A stretch of 59,823 nucleotides of DNA from Candidatus Margulisiibacteriota bacterium (GTDB taxonomy: Bacteria; Margulisbacteria; Riflemargulisbacteria; GWF2-39-127). The translations under genes and the position numbers were made by a program. This document shows positions 51,094 to 59,823 of the stretch, piece by piece; position 1 is the first letter of the stretch, and the number at the start of each line of letters is the position of its first letter. Where the stretch lies: the NCBI GenBank assembly GCA_003242895.1, contig QKMY01000061.1:1-59823 (forward strand). Reading direction: 5' to 3'. The notes beneath the pieces are model-generated. The model worked only from the letters and a program-made list of their open reading frames with translations. It ran no database searches and had not been told where the DNA came from.

Positions 51094-52017
51094 ATGAAAA
51101 CTAAAATAATATCGACACAAGATACTTATATATCCATCCATGCTGATGCGGTATATAATCCAATTTCATATAACGATCTGACAAAAATAGGAGGCAAACC
51201 TATTTTAGGAAAAATAAGGAATCAATTCCTCGCAAAACTTAATACGGCTTCTGAGCACAGAGCCATGTCCCCTTACTACCTGGAGCATGATGGCGGAGTT
51301 AAGAGCTATTATGTCGACCAGAATGTTTTGACCAAAGGTGTTGAACGCGGATGGGCTGATCCGGAAGATCCCAGGCACGTTAATTATTCAAACAGGAAAA
51401 CATATACAGGTAATGGCACATTGGCGTTTAAAGATGGAGTTCCTCAGAATCCGTATCTAAGTGCAAATCAGGCACCGGAAGGGCGAGGGTTGTTGGGAAA
51501 ATGGGGTGTTAACGCTGCTGCTGATTTTTTGATCACTTTTACAGATAATGAAGGTAAACTTCGTATACTCATGATTCGCAGGGCCGATACCCGGCAGTTT
51601 GCTTTACCAGGAGGTATGGTTGATCCCGGAGAAAAATTCAGTCAGACTGCATTGCGTGAACTGGAAGAAGAAACGGGTATCCCAACCGGACAGCTCAGGG
51701 AAGAATTGGACAATTCAGGAGAAGCCATATATCAGGGCTACGTTGATGATCCTAGAAATACCCGAAATGCCTGGATGGAAACGAATGTTTTCCATCTTAA
51801 CCTTACCAAAGAATTAGCGAGTTCGATACAGTTGCAAGCTGGTGATGATGCAATGTCAGTTGAATGGGCTGTTGCAACACCGGAACTTATTTCCAGCCTG
51901 TATGCGTCACATGGTGATTATGTTTTGATGTCCGTAGCCAGATTGATAGACGAAGGAATACTGTCCGCACAACCTTACAAAGCCCTATTCGAGGCTAAGG
52001 GATATACCGTACAATAA
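51094..52017 (+). CDS. NUDT9-like ADP-ribose pyrophosphatase
   Basis: This is a 307-residue Nudix hydrolase. The Nudix box at 174-196 is complete (GMVDPGEK, RELEEETGI). The surrounding motifs match the animal NUDT9/TRPM2 type: GRGLLGKWGVNAAADFLIT, FALPGGMVDPGE, YQGYVDDPRNTRNAWMET, LQAGDDAMSVEW and LYASH. Enzymes of that type split ADP-ribose to AMP and ribose 5-phosphate. The N-terminal 120 residues are also of the NUDT9 layout. It converges with the ATP-grasp gene (36-base gap), next to an operon that starts with a macro-domain protein, which suggests a shared ADP-ribose theme. Confidence 0.85.
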   Translation: MKTKIISTQDTYISIHADAVYNPISYNDLTKIGGKPILGKIRNQFLAKLNTASEHRAMSPYYLEHDGGVKSYYVDQNVLTKGVERGWADPEDPRHVNYSNRKTYTGNGTLAFKDGVPQNPYLSANQAPEGRGLLGKWGVNAAADFLITFTDNEGKLRILMIRRADTRQFALPGGMVDPGEKFSQTALRELEEETGIPTGQLREELDNSGEAIYQGYVDDPRNTRNAWMETNVFHLNLTKELASSIQLQAGDDAMSVEWAVATPELISSLYASHGDYVLMSVARLIDEGILSAQPYKALFEAKGYTVQ

Positions 52018-52053: not shown

Positions 52054-53061
52054 CTAAGCATGTCCTGTAGTAAGTTCAGGGAAAATAAGGTCAGCCACGT
52101 ATGCGGCAACATTTTGCGGTTGTCCCTTGCCGGGTTTCATATGCAGCGCAAAGCCGGGATTTGCGTTAATTTCGACTATCGTATAACTATCGTGGTGCTG
52201 TTCGCGTGATGCATCTTTGGTTAGGATGTCTATTCCTGCATAAGGAAGGCCATGCATGGTTTTTAGGGCTTTTGAGGCTATTGCAATAAATGAAGGGTGA
52301 ACTATATCAGTACAATCTTCGCATGTTCCGCCCATAGACACATTAGTTGTATTTCTCAAGTAAATCTTTTCTTTCAGTAACGGTATGTAGTCAAGATCAC
52401 GGTTTTGAGCCGATAAATAATCTATCGCCACCTGATCAATGATAATCGGGGAATGGACTGTGTTACGCGGGTTTGTTCTTTTATTTGATTCTCGCTCAGC
52501 TAATTCTTTTATTGAAAGCATTCCATTACCAATAACGTGTGCCGGATCACGGTGAACAACGGCATATTTCCCGGATTTTGTAATAAAGACACGATATTCT
52601 TTTCCATGAAAATATTTTTCGATTATAAATGGAATGGCGCCTAGTTCCGACAGTATTTCGTGAATAGAGGACAGCAGGGCAGCTTCATTCTTGATATCAA
52701 TAAATACGCATCCTCCATGCGAGCCCCAATTAGGTTTTACCACGACAGGATAACCGAGCTGGTTGGCATAATTAATTGCCGGTTTGATCTCGTTTGGGTT
52801 AAAAACTTTGCCTTCAGGTACGCTGAGGTCTGCTGCTTTAAGCAACTTTTTTGCCAGTATTTTGTCCGAGGCCATTTTGGTTATATTATATTGATTAATC
52901 GATGTATATCGGTCTAATAGCCACTCTATATGGTTGCCCCAGGTTGCTTTGAGCAATTCGATTTCCTGATCTACAATTACTACGGTAATTCCACGGTTTT
53001 TAAGCTCCTGTACCAGGAGCCTTTGGTTTGTATGCAGTTTTGCCAGTTCTTCGTCGTTCAT
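52054..53061 (-). CDS. ATP-grasp ligase, GshF/CphA-like
   Basis: This is a 335-residue ATP-grasp enzyme. MASDKILAKKLLKAADLSVPEG starts the fold, YPVVVKPNWGSHGGCVF binds ATP phosphates, NVSMGGTCEDCTDIVHPSF and AGIDILTKD match the GshF and cyanophycin synthetase branch, and YTIVEINANPGFALHM carries the metal-binding Glu and Asn. Such enzymes form an amide bond through an acyl phosphate. Substrates are unknown. It is the last gene of the six-gene minus-strand operon, 10 bases after the methyltransferase, and would join an amino acid or amine to the pathway product. Confidence 0.85.
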   Translation of the reverse strand: MNDEELAKLHTNQRLLVQELKNRGITVVIVDQEIELLKATWGNHIEWLLDRYTSINQYNITKMASDKILAKKLLKAADLSVPEGKVFNPNEIKPAINYANQLGYPVVVKPNWGSHGGCVFIDIKNEAALLSSIHEILSELGAIPFIIEKYFHGKEYRVFITKSGKYAVVHRDPAHVIGNGMLSIKELAERESNKRTNPRNTVHSPIIIDQVAIDYLSAQNRDLDYIPLLKEKIYLRNTTNVSMGGTCEDCTDIVHPSFIAIASKALKTMHGLPYAGIDILTKDASREQHHDSYTIVEINANPGFALHMKPGKGQPQNVAAYVADLIFPELTTGHA

Positions 53062-53071
53062 ATGGTATTCC

Positions 53072-53794
53072 TTATATTTTATTTCTTTGGAAAATTATAA
53101 CGTTATGCTGTATTGTATCAGATTTTGTTTTACTTGCTACATGTTCTCCCCATATAGTCCCGATGACGTTGTAACATTCCTCCGGGCTATCAAACTTGAA
53201 GTAGGTATTAATCTTTTTTTTTACTGAAAAACTCGCTTTTGTGATCAGCCATTCGTTGTAAGCAGTGGTCCGGTTTTCCAGATTATCGATCCGGCCACGT
53301 ATTTCTTCAAATTCTCCTCCGGAATCATTTTCTATAAGGATTATACTTCCGGTAGGTCTTAGTACCCTGTTTAGTTCTTCAAGTATTCTAACTCGCTTTT
53401 CTTCTTCCAGCACTGTCCCTAAGAACCAGCTTCCGATAATCACATCAATACTGTTAGTCTCGATAGGGATACTGTCGGCGGAAACATTAACGAGGGTAAC
53501 GTTGTTAAATAATGCAGTGTTTAAATCAGCACTATCAAGCTGTGGCTTAGAAATGTCTACTCCTGTTATATTTGTTGCCAACGGCGCGAATAGCTCGATA
53601 TATTTACCAGTTCCGCAACCGGCATCAAGCATTACACTATCTTTTATTAGCGGCTTTAAATAATCTATGATCAATCCAGGGTGATCCTCTGCTGTTGCCA
53701 GCCGGTTATAGATACCATTATTATGATAATAAATAATAGAATCAGCAGATAAAGTATTCTGTAGATAATCAATGTCAGTGGGTTTTGATAACAC
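53072..53794 (-). CDS. SAM-dependent methyltransferase of the operon
   Basis: This is a 240-residue class I methyltransferase. MLDAGCGTGKYIELF is the SAM loop, ITGVDISKPQLDSA is motif II, DVIIGSWFLGTVLEEEKRV is motif III, and RPTGSIILIENDSGGEFEE follows. The start is GTG, overlapping the radical SAM fusion gene by 20 bases, with GAGGAT upstream. The methylated substrate is unknown. In betaine-lipid synthesis a methyltransferase follows a BtaA-type transferase, and the preceding gene here has a BtaA-like domain, so a similar two-step logic is possible. Confidence 0.83.
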   Translation of the reverse strand: MLSKPTDIDYLQNTLSADSIIYYHNNGIYNRLATAEDHPGLIIDYLKPLIKDSVMLDAGCGTGKYIELFAPLATNITGVDISKPQLDSADLNTALFNNVTLVNVSADSIPIETNSIDVIIGSWFLGTVLEEEKRVRILEELNRVLRPTGSIILIENDSGGEFEEIRGRIDNLENRTTAYNEWLITKASFSVKKKINTYFKFDSPEECYNVIGTIWGEHVASKTKSDTIQHNVIIFQRNKI

Positions 53795-55598
53795 AGATCA
53801 TATCCTCTTTGTTTTCCAGTACACCCTGGAATTTATACTCAATATATTCATGGTTCCTGCCTGTAAATAAATTATTCCTGATATCTTTTCTGTATATATC
53901 ATTCCTCGGGTTGCTATTATTGCAATCATACAGATAAGCTAAAATCATACATCCCTTGTTGTGCATCTTATCTAGAAGGTTATTAACTAAAGTATTGAAG
54001 TGCTGCAGTTCGTGAATATAGTCTGCAATATTTGATAATAATATTATGTCATAGCAGGATTGGTTATTACCACTCAGTTCTTCCAGTGAATATGAATGCC
54101 AGCAAAAACTTTTTATTAGTAACTGTTCTCTGGTTTTTTCATAAGTATTTTTGCTTTGCAAATAGGGATTATATCTGATTTTATTTGATCCGCGGTCATG
54201 TGTATTGTTGAATAATTCGGATTTTCTTAATTCTTCACCGTTACGATCAAAAATAGAGTACATCCTGTCAAAGAACATTCGCGTTGCCGGGGATAGCTGC
54301 TCGTCGATTTTTTTATAGGTTTCGTATGAAAACTGATTTTTACCATCGATAAGCAAGAATGCGAGAAAATCTTCATATGACAGGTGTTTTATCGCAACCA
54401 GTTTAAGCTCGACAAAATATCTTGACAGAAGGTTGAGATCAAAGCAGGTTACTTTTTTAGCCTTAGAGTAATAAGCATTGATCATATGGTCGCCTGAGCT
54501 GCCTACACAGAGTACTGTCTTGTCCGCAAAATCAATATATGGGTAATAAGCTGCGATGTCCTCCGTAGTAAATGAATATAGCCTGCCGAATCTGGAGAAT
54601 TTTTTGGTTTTATTGAAACGGGACCGCAATGTGTTTTTATTGTTAATTGTTTCTAAAAAAGATATTTCTTCAAGATTATTTTTGGGACAGCCGGTGAGAC
54701 CTTGATTTTCCAGACTGTCAATTAATGCAGTGTATGATTGCAGTGACTGTTCCATATTGTTAAAAGCGCAATTAAAGGCTTTGGTTTGTTCATATATCCA
54801 GGTACAGGGGGATAGCGTGCCCAGAGCATCTATGTAGAGTAACCGCCTGCCTCCAGGACAGGTTTTTGGTTGGTGTGCAACTGGTTTTGCAAAGTTAGAG
54901 GAGATAACTATAGTATTATGAAAAGTCTTTTGGAGGGCTGCTATATTCTTACCAAGCTCAGGTAAAGGAATATCAGCAATTATCGATAGGTCACCTTTCA
55001 GTTTCCCAATTGGTTCCAGCAATGAATATGCGATTTCCTTTACCCCTAACTGTGAGCAAAACTCAGCTATTTCTGTTAGCTTATCCTGATTTCCTTTATA
55101 AATGAGACAGCCGACCCGAATGTATATGTTAGTCTTTGTCAGGAGCTTGAGTCCGTTAATCGTTGGTTCGAAGCTATCAGGTCCTCTGACGTTTTCATGC
55201 GATGTTCTGTCGGGGCCATCAATGCTGACATGTATCATTTGGATATTTATTGTTTTAAGGAATTCGATAGTTTTGGGTGTGATCAGAGATGCATTGGTTG
55301 AGATGTCTATTATAAACCCACAAGAAGAAAAATAAGAAAGGACCTCATATATATCAGGTCTGATAAAAGGCTCTCCACCTGTAATTTTCAGATGAGTGAA
55401 CTCCAGAGACTTCAAGTTGTCGGCTATCTTCTTGATTTCGGTAGTGGATATCTTGTTTTCCCGGATGACGTTTTGAGAATTGGGCATGCAGTATACGCAG
55501 GAGTAGTTGCAGCGGTTAGTAATACTCCAGATAACACGCTTGCCATTTTCTGGAATGCGAAAAAGACAAGCCGGCTGGCCTTCTGATTTTTTATTCAT
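53775..55598 (-). CDS. Radical SAM protein fused to a DUF3419/BtaA-like domain
   Basis: The 607-residue protein has a radical SAM domain (about 20-310) with C30, C34 and C37 in NRCNYSCVYC, KITGGEPFIRPD and STNASLITP. Extra Cys at 247, 265 and 304 (CPGG, SPCTW, TGCP) suggest an auxiliary SPASM/twitch-type cluster. The C-terminal half (about 340-607) starts TVLCVGSSGDHMINA, KVTCFDLNLLSRYFVELKL and LSYEDFLAFL. It resembles DUF3419/BtaA SAM-binding domains, which transfer the 3-amino-3-carboxypropyl group. I know of no characterised fusion of this kind. AGGAGG stands before the ATG, which overlaps the kinase stop (ATGA). Confidence 0.8.
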   Translation of the reverse strand: MNKKSEGQPACLFRIPENGKRVIWSITNRCNYSCVYCMPNSQNVIRENKISTTEIKKIADNLKSLEFTHLKITGGEPFIRPDIYEVLSYFSSCGFIIDISTNASLITPKTIEFLKTINIQMIHVSIDGPDRTSHENVRGPDSFEPTINGLKLLTKTNIYIRVGCLIYKGNQDKLTEIAEFCSQLGVKEIAYSLLEPIGKLKGDLSIIADIPLPELGKNIAALQKTFHNTIVISSNFAKPVAHQPKTCPGGRRLLYIDALGTLSPCTWIYEQTKAFNCAFNNMEQSLQSYTALIDSLENQGLTGCPKNNLEEISFLETINNKNTLRSRFNKTKKFSRFGRLYSFTTEDIAAYYPYIDFADKTVLCVGSSGDHMINAYYSKAKKVTCFDLNLLSRYFVELKLVAIKHLSYEDFLAFLLIDGKNQFSYETYKKIDEQLSPATRMFFDRMYSIFDRNGEELRKSELFNNTHDRGSNKIRYNPYLQSKNTYEKTREQLLIKSFCWHSYSLEELSGNNQSCYDIILLSNIADYIHELQHFNTLVNNLLDKMHNKGCMILAYLYDCNNSNPRNDIYRKDIRNNLFTGRNHEYIEYKFQGVLENKEDMICVIKTH

Positions 55599-56245
55599 AG
55601 CGCCTCCTGGAATATCAGGTCGAAAAGTTTTTCAAATTCGCATTTATCCGGGTGGCTACCCGTATCAAAAATAGTATAAAAACCGTTCTCTTTATTCTGA
55701 TAAATTTCCTTTATTCTTGTAATCCTGTCTGTATCAGCCGGCTGGCACTGTATCCTTTTTTGTAACTGGCGCAAGGATAGATCGCTATTTTTGAGTCTGT
55801 GCATTCTTATATTATTTGCGCAGGTTATTAGAACAAGATTGTAATCCACCAGATTAAGCATCTTGTCTTCGATGAGCATAGCCCATTCCACAATTATCAG
55901 ACCATTTAAAGGTTGAATAAGAAGTTGCAGTTCTTTTTTTATCTCCGGGTTTATTAAGTTTTCATACTTTTTCCTTTTTTGAGAATCAGAGAAGATAACC
56001 TCACCAATCATATTGCCTGGGAGTTGATTGCTGAGAGAAAGTCCGAGCTGTAAGGTGCCGGCTATTTTTTTTCTTAACTCCATATGATTGCAGGAGCTTG
56101 AAAATTGAAGGATATTTCTCCTTACCTTATCGACATCGATTATATGAAAAGGGATGTTTTTGTTGGCAGCTATTTGAGCCAGCTCATTACAGGTATAACT
56201 TTTTCCAGAGGCCATATTCCCGGTTATTCCCAAGACCTTTTTCAT
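55595..56245 (-). CDS. CoaE-like (dephospho-CoA kinase family) P-loop kinase
   Basis: This is a protein of about 216 residues. GITGNMASGKSYTCNELA is the P-loop, HIIDVDKVRRNIL the catalytic Asp segment, YENLINPEI the counterpart of the CoaE His-Pro motif, and LRQLQKRIQCQ the last conserved part. The usual PLLFE reads EWAMLIE. CoaE phosphorylates the ribose 3'-OH of dephospho-CoA. It may be the cell's ordinary CoaE or an operon-specific kinase acting on another adenosine nucleotide. ATG 56245 is chosen because it is one base past the upstream stop and matches the normal CoaE N-terminus; an in-frame ATG lies at 56263. Confidence 0.75.
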   Translation of the reverse strand: MKKVLGITGNMASGKSYTCNELAQIAANKNIPFHIIDVDKVRRNILQFSSSCNHMELRKKIAGTLQLGLSLSNQLPGNMIGEVIFSDSQKRKKYENLINPEIKKELQLLIQPLNGLIIVEWAMLIEDKMLNLVDYNLVLITCANNIRMHRLKNSDLSLRQLQKRIQCQPADTDRITRIKEIYQNKENGFYTIFDTGSHPDKCEFEKLFDLIFQEAL

Positions 56246-56246
56246 A

Positions 56247-57617
56247 TTACCAGCCAATCCCATATTTTAGTGGAATGAATGAAAGGATTTTGGAATTAGC
56301 TTTAGTGGGAAAAAAATTGGACATATCAGCTGAGCTTTTTATAATTACATAGTTCCGTTTGCTAAGGTCTTGAGTTAAATGGTCAATCCTGTTTTGCAAA
56401 TATTTCCGGGTTACTTTTGCCGTAATAACAGTAGGGAAGGAATTATGAATATACTGCGAAGGAAACCGATCGCAAACCAGCTCGCGATGAATGGTGGAGC
56501 CAGCCCTTAATGCCAGATAATGTATCCGTATCTCATCAGTTTCTAATCTGGAGATCAGTTCAATTGTAGCCTCAAGATCAGATTCTTCGGTATCCGGAAG
56601 ATCAAGGATCCAACTGCTTCTGGTCCGAAACCCGAACTCTTTGCTCTGTTGCACGGTCTTCAGAATCATGTCGCGAGTGGAATGTTTTTTTATAGACTGA
56701 AGGATGCGCTCACTCCCTGATTCCAGTCCATAATGTATCCACCTGAAACCTGCCTCGTACATTTTTTTCAAGAGATCAGTATTAACTGTATTTACAGCGG
56801 CTAGGCAACCCAGGGAGACATCCAGTTTTTTCTCAATGATAAGGTTACAGATATCAATTATTCTTTGATTATCAACTGTTGCGTTATCATCAAGAAATAT
56901 AATCTTTTTTGATCCGGTAGTTTTAACTAAATATTCAATTTCGTCTGCAACAAGAGTAGCAGATTTACCCTGCCAGTTACCCCAGAACGAAGGGGTAGGG
57001 CAGTAAGAACAACTTCCGTTACAACCGCGGCTGCTCAAGATACTGCGAACTTCAATATAGTGGTCAATGTCAATCAGTCTCCTGTCTGGCATAGGGAGAT
57101 CGTTAATGTCAGTATATTCTTGCAGGCCGTTTTTGATGATTTTATTGGCACTGCGAAAAATAATACCGTTGATCGTTGATAAAACCGGTGTATCCCAGGT
57201 TTTTTCCTTTAGTAATTGTGATAAAGCGGTTTCCATGTGGAACGTTATTATTATGTCTAAAAGGTTACATTGCTCGAATACCAGTTCTGGAAAATAGGTT
57301 GCTGTTTTCCCGCCAAGAACCGTTTTGATATTGTGTTGTGCAGCGATATTGATAATCAGGTTAATTTCGATTAGGGTTCCTGTTGTGTGAAGCGGGATAT
57401 GGTAGTCAAGGGTAAGGACGATAACCTCCGGCTTTTTATTATCAAATACGTGTTCCAGATCATCGGCTTGTAATTGTTCCGTATCCATATCAATTATTGA
57501 TACCTTATGACCGAAAGTGGCGATATAGGTTGCCAGAGAGATGATATCAATGGGCTCGATAAGTATATTTTTATCCGAAAAGGGTACATTCGGGGGATTA
57601 ATAAAAAGAATATTCAT
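56247..57617 (-). CDS. B12-binding-type radical SAM enzyme of the operon
   Basis: The 456-residue protein has a Rossmann B12-binding-like domain (about 1-145: ILFINPPNVPFSDKN, DIISLATYIATFGHKV) and a radical SAM core with C199, C203 and C206 in RGCNGSCSYCPTPS. IIFLDDNATVDNQR, RWIHYGLESGSERILQSI and SSWILDLPDTEESDLEA are typical of the cobalamin-dependent branch. A clear DxHxxG cobalamin motif is not visible, so B12 use is not certain. It starts 39 bases after the macro-domain gene on the same strand. Likely reactions are methylation of an unactivated carbon or a ring rearrangement. Confidence 0.85.
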   Translation of the reverse strand: MNILFINPPNVPFSDKNILIEPIDIISLATYIATFGHKVSIIDMDTEQLQADDLEHVFDNKKPEVIVLTLDYHIPLHTTGTLIEINLIINIAAQHNIKTVLGGKTATYFPELVFEQCNLLDIIITFHMETALSQLLKEKTWDTPVLSTINGIIFRSANKIIKNGLQEYTDINDLPMPDRRLIDIDHYIEVRSILSSRGCNGSCSYCPTPSFWGNWQGKSATLVADEIEYLVKTTGSKKIIFLDDNATVDNQRIIDICNLIIEKKLDVSLGCLAAVNTVNTDLLKKMYEAGFRWIHYGLESGSERILQSIKKHSTRDMILKTVQQSKEFGFRTRSSWILDLPDTEESDLEATIELISRLETDEIRIHYLALRAGSTIHRELVCDRFPSQYIHNSFPTVITAKVTRKYLQNRIDHLTQDLSKRNYVIIKSSADMSNFFPTKANSKILSFIPLKYGIGW

Positions 57618-57656
57618 AATAAGAGTATACTAACATTTTTAATGCAAGATACGGAA

Positions 57657-59549
57657 CTATTCGTTACTTCCATAGCCTGAACTTCGACCGGAGTAAACTG
57701 GACTATATGATGATCTCTGCACGCTTTTAAGCCGGGCTGCTTCCAACTCCAGTTGTTTTTTATCCTGAACTAAGCTTTCATTTTTGCTCTGCAATTGGTA
57801 GTTGTCGCGTCGTAGTTTATTCATCTGATGTTTTGTATCTGCTAATTCCGTGTCCATTTCGGATAGTTGCTGTTTTAGTCTGGTGATTATTTCAGGATCA
57901 CCAATTGTGCCAAACATGGTATCGAAACCTTTTTTAAGATGGGTGCATTTTGCTTTAAAGGTGGTTAATTGGTCAAGTTTTTCATTGATAGCTGCAAACT
58001 GCGGCGCATCCGTGGATACTTCCATCATATCGGCCATATGGGCAAGTGCTGTCTTCTGTTTCTGGTAAGTATCTTCCAGTTCTTTTATTTTTTTTTCGAG
58101 TTCTTCAATGTTTAATTTGCATGAGACTTCGATTAAACGAGTAAGCTTTTCCTGAGATATGCTGTAACCAAAAGCCTCTAATACTTCATGAAGGAGCTCT
58201 TTATTCAAGGCCATTTTGGGATTGCCTGATTTTTCTACAATGAACTCTAATAGCTTGGACCTTGTATCTTTATCGGATTCTTTTCCGGTAATTTGTTCTA
58301 TTGCATCAACCAGGACCCTTCGGGCAACCGTATACTCCGGATTGAAATCTGTTTCAGTATGCGGGGTAAACTTTTTACTCAATTCTTCAATGAAAGTAAG
58401 ATAGGATTGTTCGCCGTATGCTTTAGTACTTACTCCTTCAGGCGCATCGATAGCCTTGCCGTGAGCAATAGCCTGATTGATCACGACCACAAAAGTATTT
58501 AAACTTTTGTCGTCGCCTTTTTCTTTAAGAAAACGATTTATTGCAGAATATAACGCTTTTGCTGATTCCCTGGGCGTCAGGTCACTTAATAGCCCTGTGT
58601 TTAGCGCTGGGAACGCAATTGATTTCAGCCCGGCAGCATCAGCTTGCAGCAAAGCATTATACGCTGCTTTTTCTGTTACTGCGTAAGCATCACTTTCCGG
58701 CAAAGCACTTACAATATTTACAAAAGCAACTGGCTGACCTTTTCTCTCTCTGAGTATCTTGTGTACAAGGTCTGTATGTTTCGAATATTTCGTTGAATCG
58801 AGCCCAAGATCGAGTTGATTGTCATGGTAGTTTATCGGACTAAGATAATAATTTTTCTGTGAACTTAATAGTCCGGTATTTGCCAGGACCTCCCTGATTT
58901 GTATGGAATCCTCAAGAGAGATAGTATCATTTACAAAGCTGTCATCGCTAACCCGGCTTATACCTTTTTGAGATAACAGTTCTAAGGTTTTTCTTATGAA
59001 AGGGTCATGCGCTGTAAATTTACCGGAATTGAGCCCAAGATTAACTGATAGGTCATTATAAACAATATTTGTTAGATAATATCGCTGGCCAGTTAGGAGA
59101 ATATTGTTCTTAACAAGAATTTCTCTGATTTTTTTTGAATCCTTTACTGTCAGGCCATCTCTGGCAAATAGATCTTCCTCTATACGCCCCTTATCCCAGG
59201 GAGCAGCGGTTAAGAAGGCATCGCCATAATCTTTGCCAGCAATCTCAGTGTTGATCTGTTCCCAGGTTTTTCTGATTGCTAGCTGGTCCCAATAATTTTT
59301 TCTTGCCGTGATAATTGATCCGGCGACCCCTCCTCTGGAAGCTTCATCTTTAAGATGAGGGACTACCCAGGCATCTACATTATCTAGTTTGGTAATGTCC
59401 CCAAGCGCGACAATAATCTCGGTTTTTTTAGCTATCCTTTTTCCAACCGCTGTTTTTATTTTTGCGTTGGATTTGATCCTGCCGAGAATCCCGGATGACT
59501 GGTCCTGATAAACCGGAATTGAGGCTGTTCCTATAATTTTTCTCAGCAT
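57657..59549 (-). CDS. Macro-domain protein with duplicated insert and C-terminal coiled coil
   Basis: The 630-residue protein shows the two halves of a macro domain, which normally binds ADP-ribose. Residues about 44-118 hold IIVALGDITKLDNVDAWVV and RGGVAGSII; residues about 272-360 hold FVNIVSALPESDAYA and LKSIAFPALNTGLLSDL. The usual Asn pair of the binding loop is replaced by PHL. Between the halves are about 150 residues with two similar units (131-192 and 208-267), each with DSxxIREVL/ILxxxxLL and YYLxxIxYxDxxxxLGLxS. A helical region and a long coiled coil (about 485-610) follow, then a Ser/Tyr/Gly tail. AGGAGA stands before the ATG. Confidence 0.75.
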   Translation of the reverse strand: MLRKIIGTASIPVYQDQSSGILGRIKSNAKIKTAVGKRIAKKTEIIVALGDITKLDNVDAWVVPHLKDEASRGGVAGSIITARKNYWDQLAIRKTWEQINTEIAGKDYGDAFLTAAPWDKGRIEEDLFARDGLTVKDSKKIREILVKNNILLTGQRYYLTNIVYNDLSVNLGLNSGKFTAHDPFIRKTLELLSQKGISRVSDDSFVNDTISLEDSIQIREVLANTGLLSSQKNYYLSPINYHDNQLDLGLDSTKYSKHTDLVHKILRERKGQPVAFVNIVSALPESDAYAVTEKAAYNALLQADAAGLKSIAFPALNTGLLSDLTPRESAKALYSAINRFLKEKGDDKSLNTFVVVINQAIAHGKAIDAPEGVSTKAYGEQSYLTFIEELSKKFTPHTETDFNPEYTVARRVLVDAIEQITGKESDKDTRSKLLEFIVEKSGNPKMALNKELLHEVLEAFGYSISQEKLTRLIEVSCKLNIEELEKKIKELEDTYQKQKTALAHMADMMEVSTDAPQFAAINEKLDQLTTFKAKCTHLKKGFDTMFGTIGDPEIITRLKQQLSEMDTELADTKHQMNKLRRDNYQLQSKNESLVQDKKQLELEAARLKSVQRSSYSPVYSGRSSGYGSNE

Positions 59550-59823
59550 TGTTTTCTCCTGTGAAGGTTCTATTGCTTGCTATTAGTTTTTGTTTGAATC
59601 TTGAGGAATTAAAACTTTAGCTGCATCTTATAAATGTATCGACATGAGTTTTTAAAAATCTCTCAAATTTTCAAATGTTTTTCCAAGAATATATGACCTT
59701 TATTCCGATATATATTCCGATATCCCCAACTCCTAAACAGAGAACTATATCAACTCAAAAAAACATTGTAGTGATATTGAAAAATAGAGTCAAACAAGGA
59801 TCACCTAATTGGTGAGAAAATAT
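59550..59823 (-). promoter_or_regulatory. Upstream region of the six-gene operon with short repeats
   Basis: No gene is supported in the last 274 bases. A 12-base tandem repeat (TATTCCGATATA, then TATTCCGATATC) lies at 59701-59724, and an inverted repeat TCACC-TAATT-GGTGA lies at 59801-59815. On the minus strand TATAAG near 59628-59633 could be a -10 box, but no good -35 box is present. The repeats are candidate binding sites for a regulator of the operon. Confidence 0.4.

Follow-up and report, generated by a model that had tools for sequence, protein, structure and literature searches.

In a 59,823-nucleotide stretch of DNA from a Candidatus Margulisiibacteriota bacterium (the window, which is the entire contig QKMY01000061.1, C61 of genome G000 below), we analysed an operon of six genes on the minus strand. 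Its first and last genes code for a macro/coiled-coil protein and a stand-alone ATP-grasp ligase, and these two form a fixed, conserved pair at three loci, accompanied by an exchangeable set of radical S-adenosylmethionine (SAM) and other tailoring enzymes. The recurrence of the pair with different tailoring enzymes points to a real system, undescribed in the open-access literature, that would make an unusual chemical group or attach one.

The macro and ATP-grasp genes recur as a pair

We searched 74 genomes of the phylum for relatives of the operon, the ligase being searched within the class and then as a profile within the phylum. Macro relatives were found at two further loci, besides one weak match to an ordinary short macro protein. 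Strong full-length ligase matches were confined to the window, to contig C38 of the same genome and to contig C18 of G034, a genome from another family of the class. At all three complete loci, which come from two genomes, the ligase gene accompanies a macro relative. In G033, a 33-amino-acid piece of ATP-grasp at the edge of a contig is likely a fourth locus, truncated there. The first-pass annotation had treated the six genes as one system and proposed to look for the radical SAM-DUF3419 fusion together with the macro and ATP-grasp genes. The latter two do occur together, but the fusion is found in the window operon only. As a complete set the six genes are not conserved: among the 74 genomes, the fusion, the CoaE-like gene and the methyltransferase gene are private to the operon, as is the B12-binding radical SAM gene, and the related loci carry other radical SAM enzymes. 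The conserved unit is therefore the macro and ATP-grasp pair, with the island described below, plus an exchangeable tailoring set.

The ligase corresponds to the ATP-grasp domain of cyanophycin synthetase (CphA structure 7lg5, E value 6.3e-56). It shares this ATP-grasp subfamily, across the whole domain, with cyanophycin synthetase, GshAB and Ngg; unlike them, it stands alone, falls into a separate clade and has a macro gene as neighbour. It is not itself a cyanophycin synthetase, as it covers only profile positions 163-475 of 862, with no N-terminal and no C-terminal Mur-ligase domain in the chain. In a tree with a small outgroup sample of cyanophycin synthetase, GshAB, Ngg and viral ligases, the ligases of the window, C38 and G034 made one clade (support 100/99), in which those of C38 and G034 are sisters. 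CphA-like ATP-grasp domains also occur in viral proteins (L098 7410-9107 and others on related contigs); these formed a separate clade and are accompanied by none of the partner genes.

At the two sister loci the pair lies within a larger island. The order in C38 is a VWA protein with an HExxH motif (890 amino acids), a protein with two AAA regions (dual AAA, 1106 amino acids), macro, ATP-grasp, a SPASM radical SAM, another radical SAM and two B12-radical SAM genes, with a SLOG gene and another methyltransferase gene about 7-9 kb beyond. On the minus strand of G034:C18 the order is SPASM radical SAM, SLOG, HExxH-VWA, dual AAA, macro, an RlmN-like radical SAM and ATP-grasp, and a B12-radical SAM, a methyltransferase and a second RlmN-like gene are divergent from these. 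Identity between the two islands is 35-36% for the VWA protein, 40% for AAA, 30% for macro, 49% for the ligase, 42% for the SPASM radical SAM, 53-54% for SLOG and 33% for the methyltransferase. Only the macro and ligase genes are in common with the window operon, whose other enzymes differ.

None of the island proteins tested scored over a curated NCBIfam cut-off. The SLOG gene was otherwise not found in the phylum, bar one weak match, and G040 has a VWA-AAA pair without macro or ligase. No match was found to the macro protein in plasmids, phages or viral contigs, or to the AAA protein in plasmids or phages; two scans of genome contigs, one for the fusion and one with the macro alignment, both relying on a few short exact peptide patterns, gave no relative. 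Near the SLOG gene of C38 there is a 994-amino-acid protein with a Zeta-toxin-type kinase domain (L091 4403-7387). Another contig of the same genome, C7 (L073 2-4258), codes for a single protein in which two AAA regions and an HExxH motif are joined to a VWA domain at the C-terminus, a one-chain version of the AAA and HExxH-VWA pair.

Organization of the window operon

The six open reading frames (ORFs) lie head to tail and read macro, B12-radical SAM, CoaE-like, radical SAM-DUF3419 fusion (53775-55598), methyltransferase and ATP-grasp (Table 1). We reproduced the spacings given by the first-pass annotation (39, 1, -4, -20 and 10 nucleotides), the value of 1 requiring that the CoaE-like gene start at 56245. 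The span assigned earlier ended at 57657 and so left out the macro gene (57657-59549). Shine-Dalgarno-like sequences precede the macro, fusion, methyltransferase and ATP-grasp genes; none was seen before the B12-radical SAM or CoaE-like genes. The contig ends 274 nucleotides upstream of the macro gene, past a sigma-70-like promoter (TTGACT-17-TACAAT). As this upstream stretch holds that promoter and no notable ORF, the macro gene is probably the first in the transcript. On its own the promoter is weak, since 33 such sites were found in the region versus 27.5 expected in shuffles, which is no excess. The intact spacing makes a single transcript, as had been proposed, plausible.

Table 1. Features of the window, with positions counted from its first nucleotide
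Feature	Position	Strand	Basis
Sigma-70-like promoter, TTGACT-17-TACAAT	59765..59793	-	10/12 consensus matches, upstream of macro gene
Macro/coiled-coil protein, 630 amino acids, first operon gene, conserved core	57657..59549	-	ORF; relatives at C38 and G034
Two tandem repeats of about 59 amino acids inside macro domain, residues 131-189 and 208-266	58752..59159	-	Alignment score
B12-binding radical SAM, 456 amino acids, BchE/HpnJ-like	56247..57617	-	Pfam Radical_SAM 1e-19, B12-binding 1.3e-11; CxxxCxxC at residue 199
CoaE-like P-loop kinase, 222 amino acids, alternative ATG start 56245	55595..56263	-	Pfam CoaE 1.9e-18
Fusion, radical SAM and twitch/SPASM-like half	54729..55544	-	Pfam Radical_SAM 2.4e-23; CxxxCxxC at residues 30-37; C-x12-G-x4-C at residues 247-265
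Fusion, DUF3419 half, BtaA-type aminocarboxypropyltransferase family, shortened	53775..54587	-	Pfam DUF3419 5.8e-22
Class I SAM methyltransferase, 240 amino acids, GTG start	53072..53794	-	Pfam Methyltransf_11 1.4e-17
Stand-alone CphA/GshF-type ATP-grasp ligase, 335 amino acids, conserved core	52054..53061	-	NCBIfam cyanophycin synthetase 235 bits, partial
NUDT9/TRPM2-type ADP-ribose pyrophosphatase, convergent neighbour, candidate member only	51094..52017	+	Human NUDT9 1q33, E value 2.5e-30

It could be argued that macro and ATP-grasp are the functional pair, and that the four genes between them are an unrelated pathway inserted into the transcript. Indeed, no inner gene has an ortholog at C38 or G034 (B12-radical SAM similarity is just 21-27%), and the fusion is unique among the genomes searched. 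The tight spacing with its overlaps argues against an insertion, however, and G034 too has an unrelated radical SAM, the RlmN-like one, between macro and ATP-grasp. G+C content is 0.38-0.42 for the six genes at a contig mean of 0.40, and that of third codon positions (GC3) likewise fits the contig, giving no compositional sign of a chimera or recent transfer. We consider an inserted pathway very unlikely.

The macro/coiled-coil protein

The families named by the first-pass annotation mostly stood: RimK/CphA-type ATP-grasp, Methyltransf_11, Radical_SAM with DUF3419, CoaE, and B12-binding with Radical_SAM were all recovered, though DUF3419 in a short version, and the window protein, taken singly, makes a weak case for a macro domain. 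For this protein the Pfam Macro match is below the cut-off (E value 0.0012), while its two relatives are at or over it (0.00013 and 7.1e-8), and a profile of the three proteins matches the macro domain of macroH2A (E value 1e-4). The recognisable part of the window domain is its second half. The tandem repeats within the domain align with a score of 115 (shuffled mean 25.9, standard deviation 4.8, maximum 47), and this insertion is an alignment gap in both relatives. The macro domain is followed by a long coiled coil and a disordered C-terminal tail rich in Ser, Gly and aromatic residues. The tail of the window protein ends in YGSNE. The relatives lack this ending, and the idea of an FxSxx-type C-terminal peptide was therefore dropped. 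A structure predicted from the three-row alignment had a mean predicted local distance difference test (pLDDT) score of 55.3, too poor for a fold search.

The first macro motif retains GD...DAW, and reads DAWVVPH in the window protein; the relatives have DAWVVPHF and DAWAIPEF. At this place a typical macro domain carries NAAN, which binds the ligand. The Asn of NAAN, taken here as the mark of an ADP-ribosylhydrolase, is absent from all three proteins.

The inner tailoring enzymes

The closest curated families of the B12-radical SAM enzyme are BchE and HpnJ, whose cut-offs lie far above its scores. The CoaE-like kinase had been open to the objection that it, or the ligase, might be an ordinary housekeeping enzyme. 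This did not prove to be so: a canonical CoaE is encoded elsewhere in the genome (C43, E value 1.0e-34), so the second copy, in the operon, is not the housekeeping one, and the ligase sits in its own clade with a macro neighbour. As a dephospho-CoA kinase the operon copy also fell short of NCBIfam TIGR00152 (60.5 bits, cut-off 65.55). In G034:C31 (L033 961-2829) we observed a protein that joins a CoaD-like adenylyltransferase to a CoaE-like kinase and ends in an HD-like part; that genome also has a separate CoaE.

The fusion is the sole DUF3419 protein in the 74 genomes. We compared its DUF3419 half with a BtaA-type profile built on three sequences (two rhizobial DUF3419 proteins and a BtaA-like one), which matched in two collinear stretches, 27-119 and 227-296 of 357, the second of them weak. 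With two stretches rather than a full-length match, the fusion was rejected as a true BtaA. The predicted structure of the DUF3419 part alone (pLDDT 34.3) was too poor for a fold search. Viperin was also rejected for the fusion, as the viperin profile gave 62 bits against a cut-off of 180, the heme b synthase profile scored higher (123.7) and PADLOC pVip gave 73.4 bits. A twitch-like C-x12-G-x4-C is present.

The function of BtaA and BtaB in betaine lipid synthesis is established. As in the BtaA/BtaB arrangement seen in Sinorhizobium, the DUF3419 gene of the window overlaps the class I methyltransferase gene that comes after it, an arrangement that by analogy suggests aminocarboxypropyl transfer and methylation. 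Unlike BtaA, the window DUF3419 is fused to a radical SAM/twitch part and misses about 105 internal residues, and the methyltransferase resembles a BtaB-like protein in a general way only (29% over 121 amino acids). DUF3419 also occurs outside betaine lipid synthesis: Rhizobium and Shinella plasmids (L092 688-5086, L093 694-5086) have a conserved set of MBL hydrolase, CoF synthetase, DUF3419 and another conserved protein, with an oxidoreductase upstream.

A possible product and its receptor

We tentatively favour the view that the class has a system of its own, of which the operon is a second, private version. In this view the constant macro/coiled-coil protein and CphA-type ligase are combined with variable radical SAM tailoring, and the outcome would be a group that contains adenosine or ADP, bears an amino acid and is recognised by the macro protein. 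What the sequences show directly is the gene order, the families, the recurrence of the pair, the ligase clade and the shared island; each chemical step, the product and how it connects to the macro domain we infer. The fusion and its partner methyltransferase would transfer a 3-amino-3-carboxypropyl (homoserine-type) group from SAM and methylate it; the B12-radical SAM enzyme would alkylate carbon; the CoaE-like kinase might phosphorylate a ribose hydroxyl on the adenosine-type part; and the ligase would couple an amino acid or short peptide to the resulting acid or amine. The macro/coiled-coil protein would then bind the product, as carrier or receptor, and at the sister loci the dual AAA ATPase and the HExxH-VWA protein may load, remodel or cleave the product-macro complex. 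Within the constant pair, the macro/coiled-coil protein likely serves to receive or carry what the ligase makes.

The coincidence of the pair, the separate ligase clade, the intact spacing and the paralogous, non-housekeeping CoaE-like gene support this proposal. A nucleotide-bearing product, as the first-pass annotation had suggested, is plausible but indirect, the biosynthetic reading being supported in part. It is favoured because proteins that act on adenosine, NAD or ADP-ribose compounds, or have folds for them, turn up repeatedly around the loci, an argument from theme and not proof: macro, the CoaE-like kinase and the NUDT9-like neighbour in the window, macro in both relatives, SLOG at both sister loci, an RlmN-like enzyme at G034 and a NadR-like one at C38. 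The window NUDT9/TRPM2-type enzyme is strikingly near animal enzymes for a bacterial protein.

Several observations weigh against the proposal. With the DAWVVPH-type residues in place of NAAN, ADP-ribose binding may be lost or changed. The DUF3419 half lacks model positions 120-226, and the NadR-like and NUDT9-like genes may be independent neighbours. No VWA or AAA gene lies on the window contig, and no second copy of these partners, in particular no second full AAA gene, was found in the genome. The number of complete loci and of source genomes is small.

A wider proposal, which we regard as rather unlikely, is that the loci are variants of one undescribed system. Its radical SAM sets, exchangeable for one another, would each make a different conjugate of an amino acid with an adenosine- or ADP-bearing part. 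A macro/coiled-coil protein with altered catalysis would receive all of these conjugates, the dual AAA/HExxH-VWA machine would act on them where the system is complete, and the conjugate would be a new kind of cofactor or signal with its own receptor.

If the system works as we propose, it would connect two fields ordinarily kept apart, radical SAM/ATP-grasp biosynthesis and the macro/SLOG/MoxR-vWA systems, which are believed to deal with NAD-derived ligands. The ligase clade and macro family in their fixed partnership, and the fusion, would be handles for finding the product.

Relation to known systems

The earlier statement that no pathway with this gene set is known held, as no library searched gave a match. 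Among the papers of the open-access library searched, none brings a macro domain, radical SAM and ATP-grasp together, nor DUF3419 and radical SAM. The closest known systems are the MoxR-vWA ternary systems and radical SAM/ATP-grasp clusters.

MoxR-vWA ternary nucleoside triphosphate-dependent conflict systems are of VMAP, iSTAND and FtsH types (PMC7159879). The C38 and G034 islands resemble them in their adjacent MoxR/dynein-related AAA and VWA genes, a third conserved protein, and radical SAM and metallopeptidase functions. They differ in that the third protein is a macro/coiled-coil protein, the AAA protein has two AAA regions, HExxH is fused to VWA, and a CphA-type ATP-grasp and several radical SAM enzymes are present; the window contig ends before any AAA or VWA gene. 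A metallopeptidase-vWA/MoxR pair is also known from group 2.2 jumbo phages (PMC7824862), likewise with HExxH N-terminal to VWA and an adjoining MoxR-type AAA gene. Unlike that pair, the islands have no phage context, have macro, ATP-grasp and SLOG partners, and matched nothing in the phage collection at either the DNA or the protein level.

These likenesses allow the island to be read as a MoxR-vWA ternary conflict or immunity system, with the macro protein in place of the known third components and the tailoring set producing a signal or effector derived from NAD or a nucleotide. SLOG, macro and Nudix are among the NAD/ADP-ribose effectors catalogued for these systems (PMC7159879), and a constant core with swapped accessories would fit. 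We found, however, no convincing PADLOC match (the best was general radical SAM similarity to viperin models), no VMAP, iSTAND or FtsH component with Pfam or NCBIfam, and no toxin-like effector. An immunity role is distinctly unlikely, and would in any case be compatible with a nucleotide-bearing conjugate made for the macro protein rather than its exclusive alternative.

The main rival to such a conjugate is modification of a polypeptide by the radical SAM enzymes, methyltransferase and ATP-grasp ligase, the target being perhaps the tail of the macro protein or a precursor coded elsewhere, which at the sister loci HExxH-VWA would cleave and AAA remodel. The tails themselves (SSYSPVYSGRSSGYGSNE, ISGYLSASSRSSWG, TPITSPTYKKSY) are suggestive, alike in composition, but without a clear common motif. 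The fusion has twitch/SPASM-like cysteines, and the closest protein in the phylum to its radical SAM half is a radical SAM/SPASM-ATP-grasp fusion in G034, beside a repeat protein resembling the precursor of a ribosomally synthesised and post-translationally modified peptide (RiPP). Radical SAM and metallopeptidase genes for peptide processing are also reported to accompany MoxR-vWA systems (PMC7159879). As in grasp-with-spasm and other radical SAM/ATP-grasp RiPP clusters, a radical SAM enzyme with SPASM/twitch features occurs together with an ATP-grasp ligase. Unlike in those clusters, the gaps of the operon and the 274 nucleotides upstream hold no small precursor ORF, although a precursor could lie at a distance; the ligase is of the CphA/GshF and not the MvdC/MvdD type; and there are extra CoaE-like, DUF3419 and macro genes, the first two not known from peptide modification. 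We regard peptide modification as possible, if doubtful.

Other radical SAM loci

In G034:C9 (L089 1638-5110), a repeat protein with several EEGGG..TH motifs is followed by a radical SAM/SPASM enzyme fused to an MvdD-type ATP-grasp, which looks like a RiPP precursor and its one-chain maturase. Four tandem radical SAM genes followed by a creatininase-type-like gene in G033:C61 (L087 5671-10426) recall mycofactocin-type clusters, and in G033:C3 (L088 1-5344) a YcaO-like gene is flanked by two B12-radical SAM genes.

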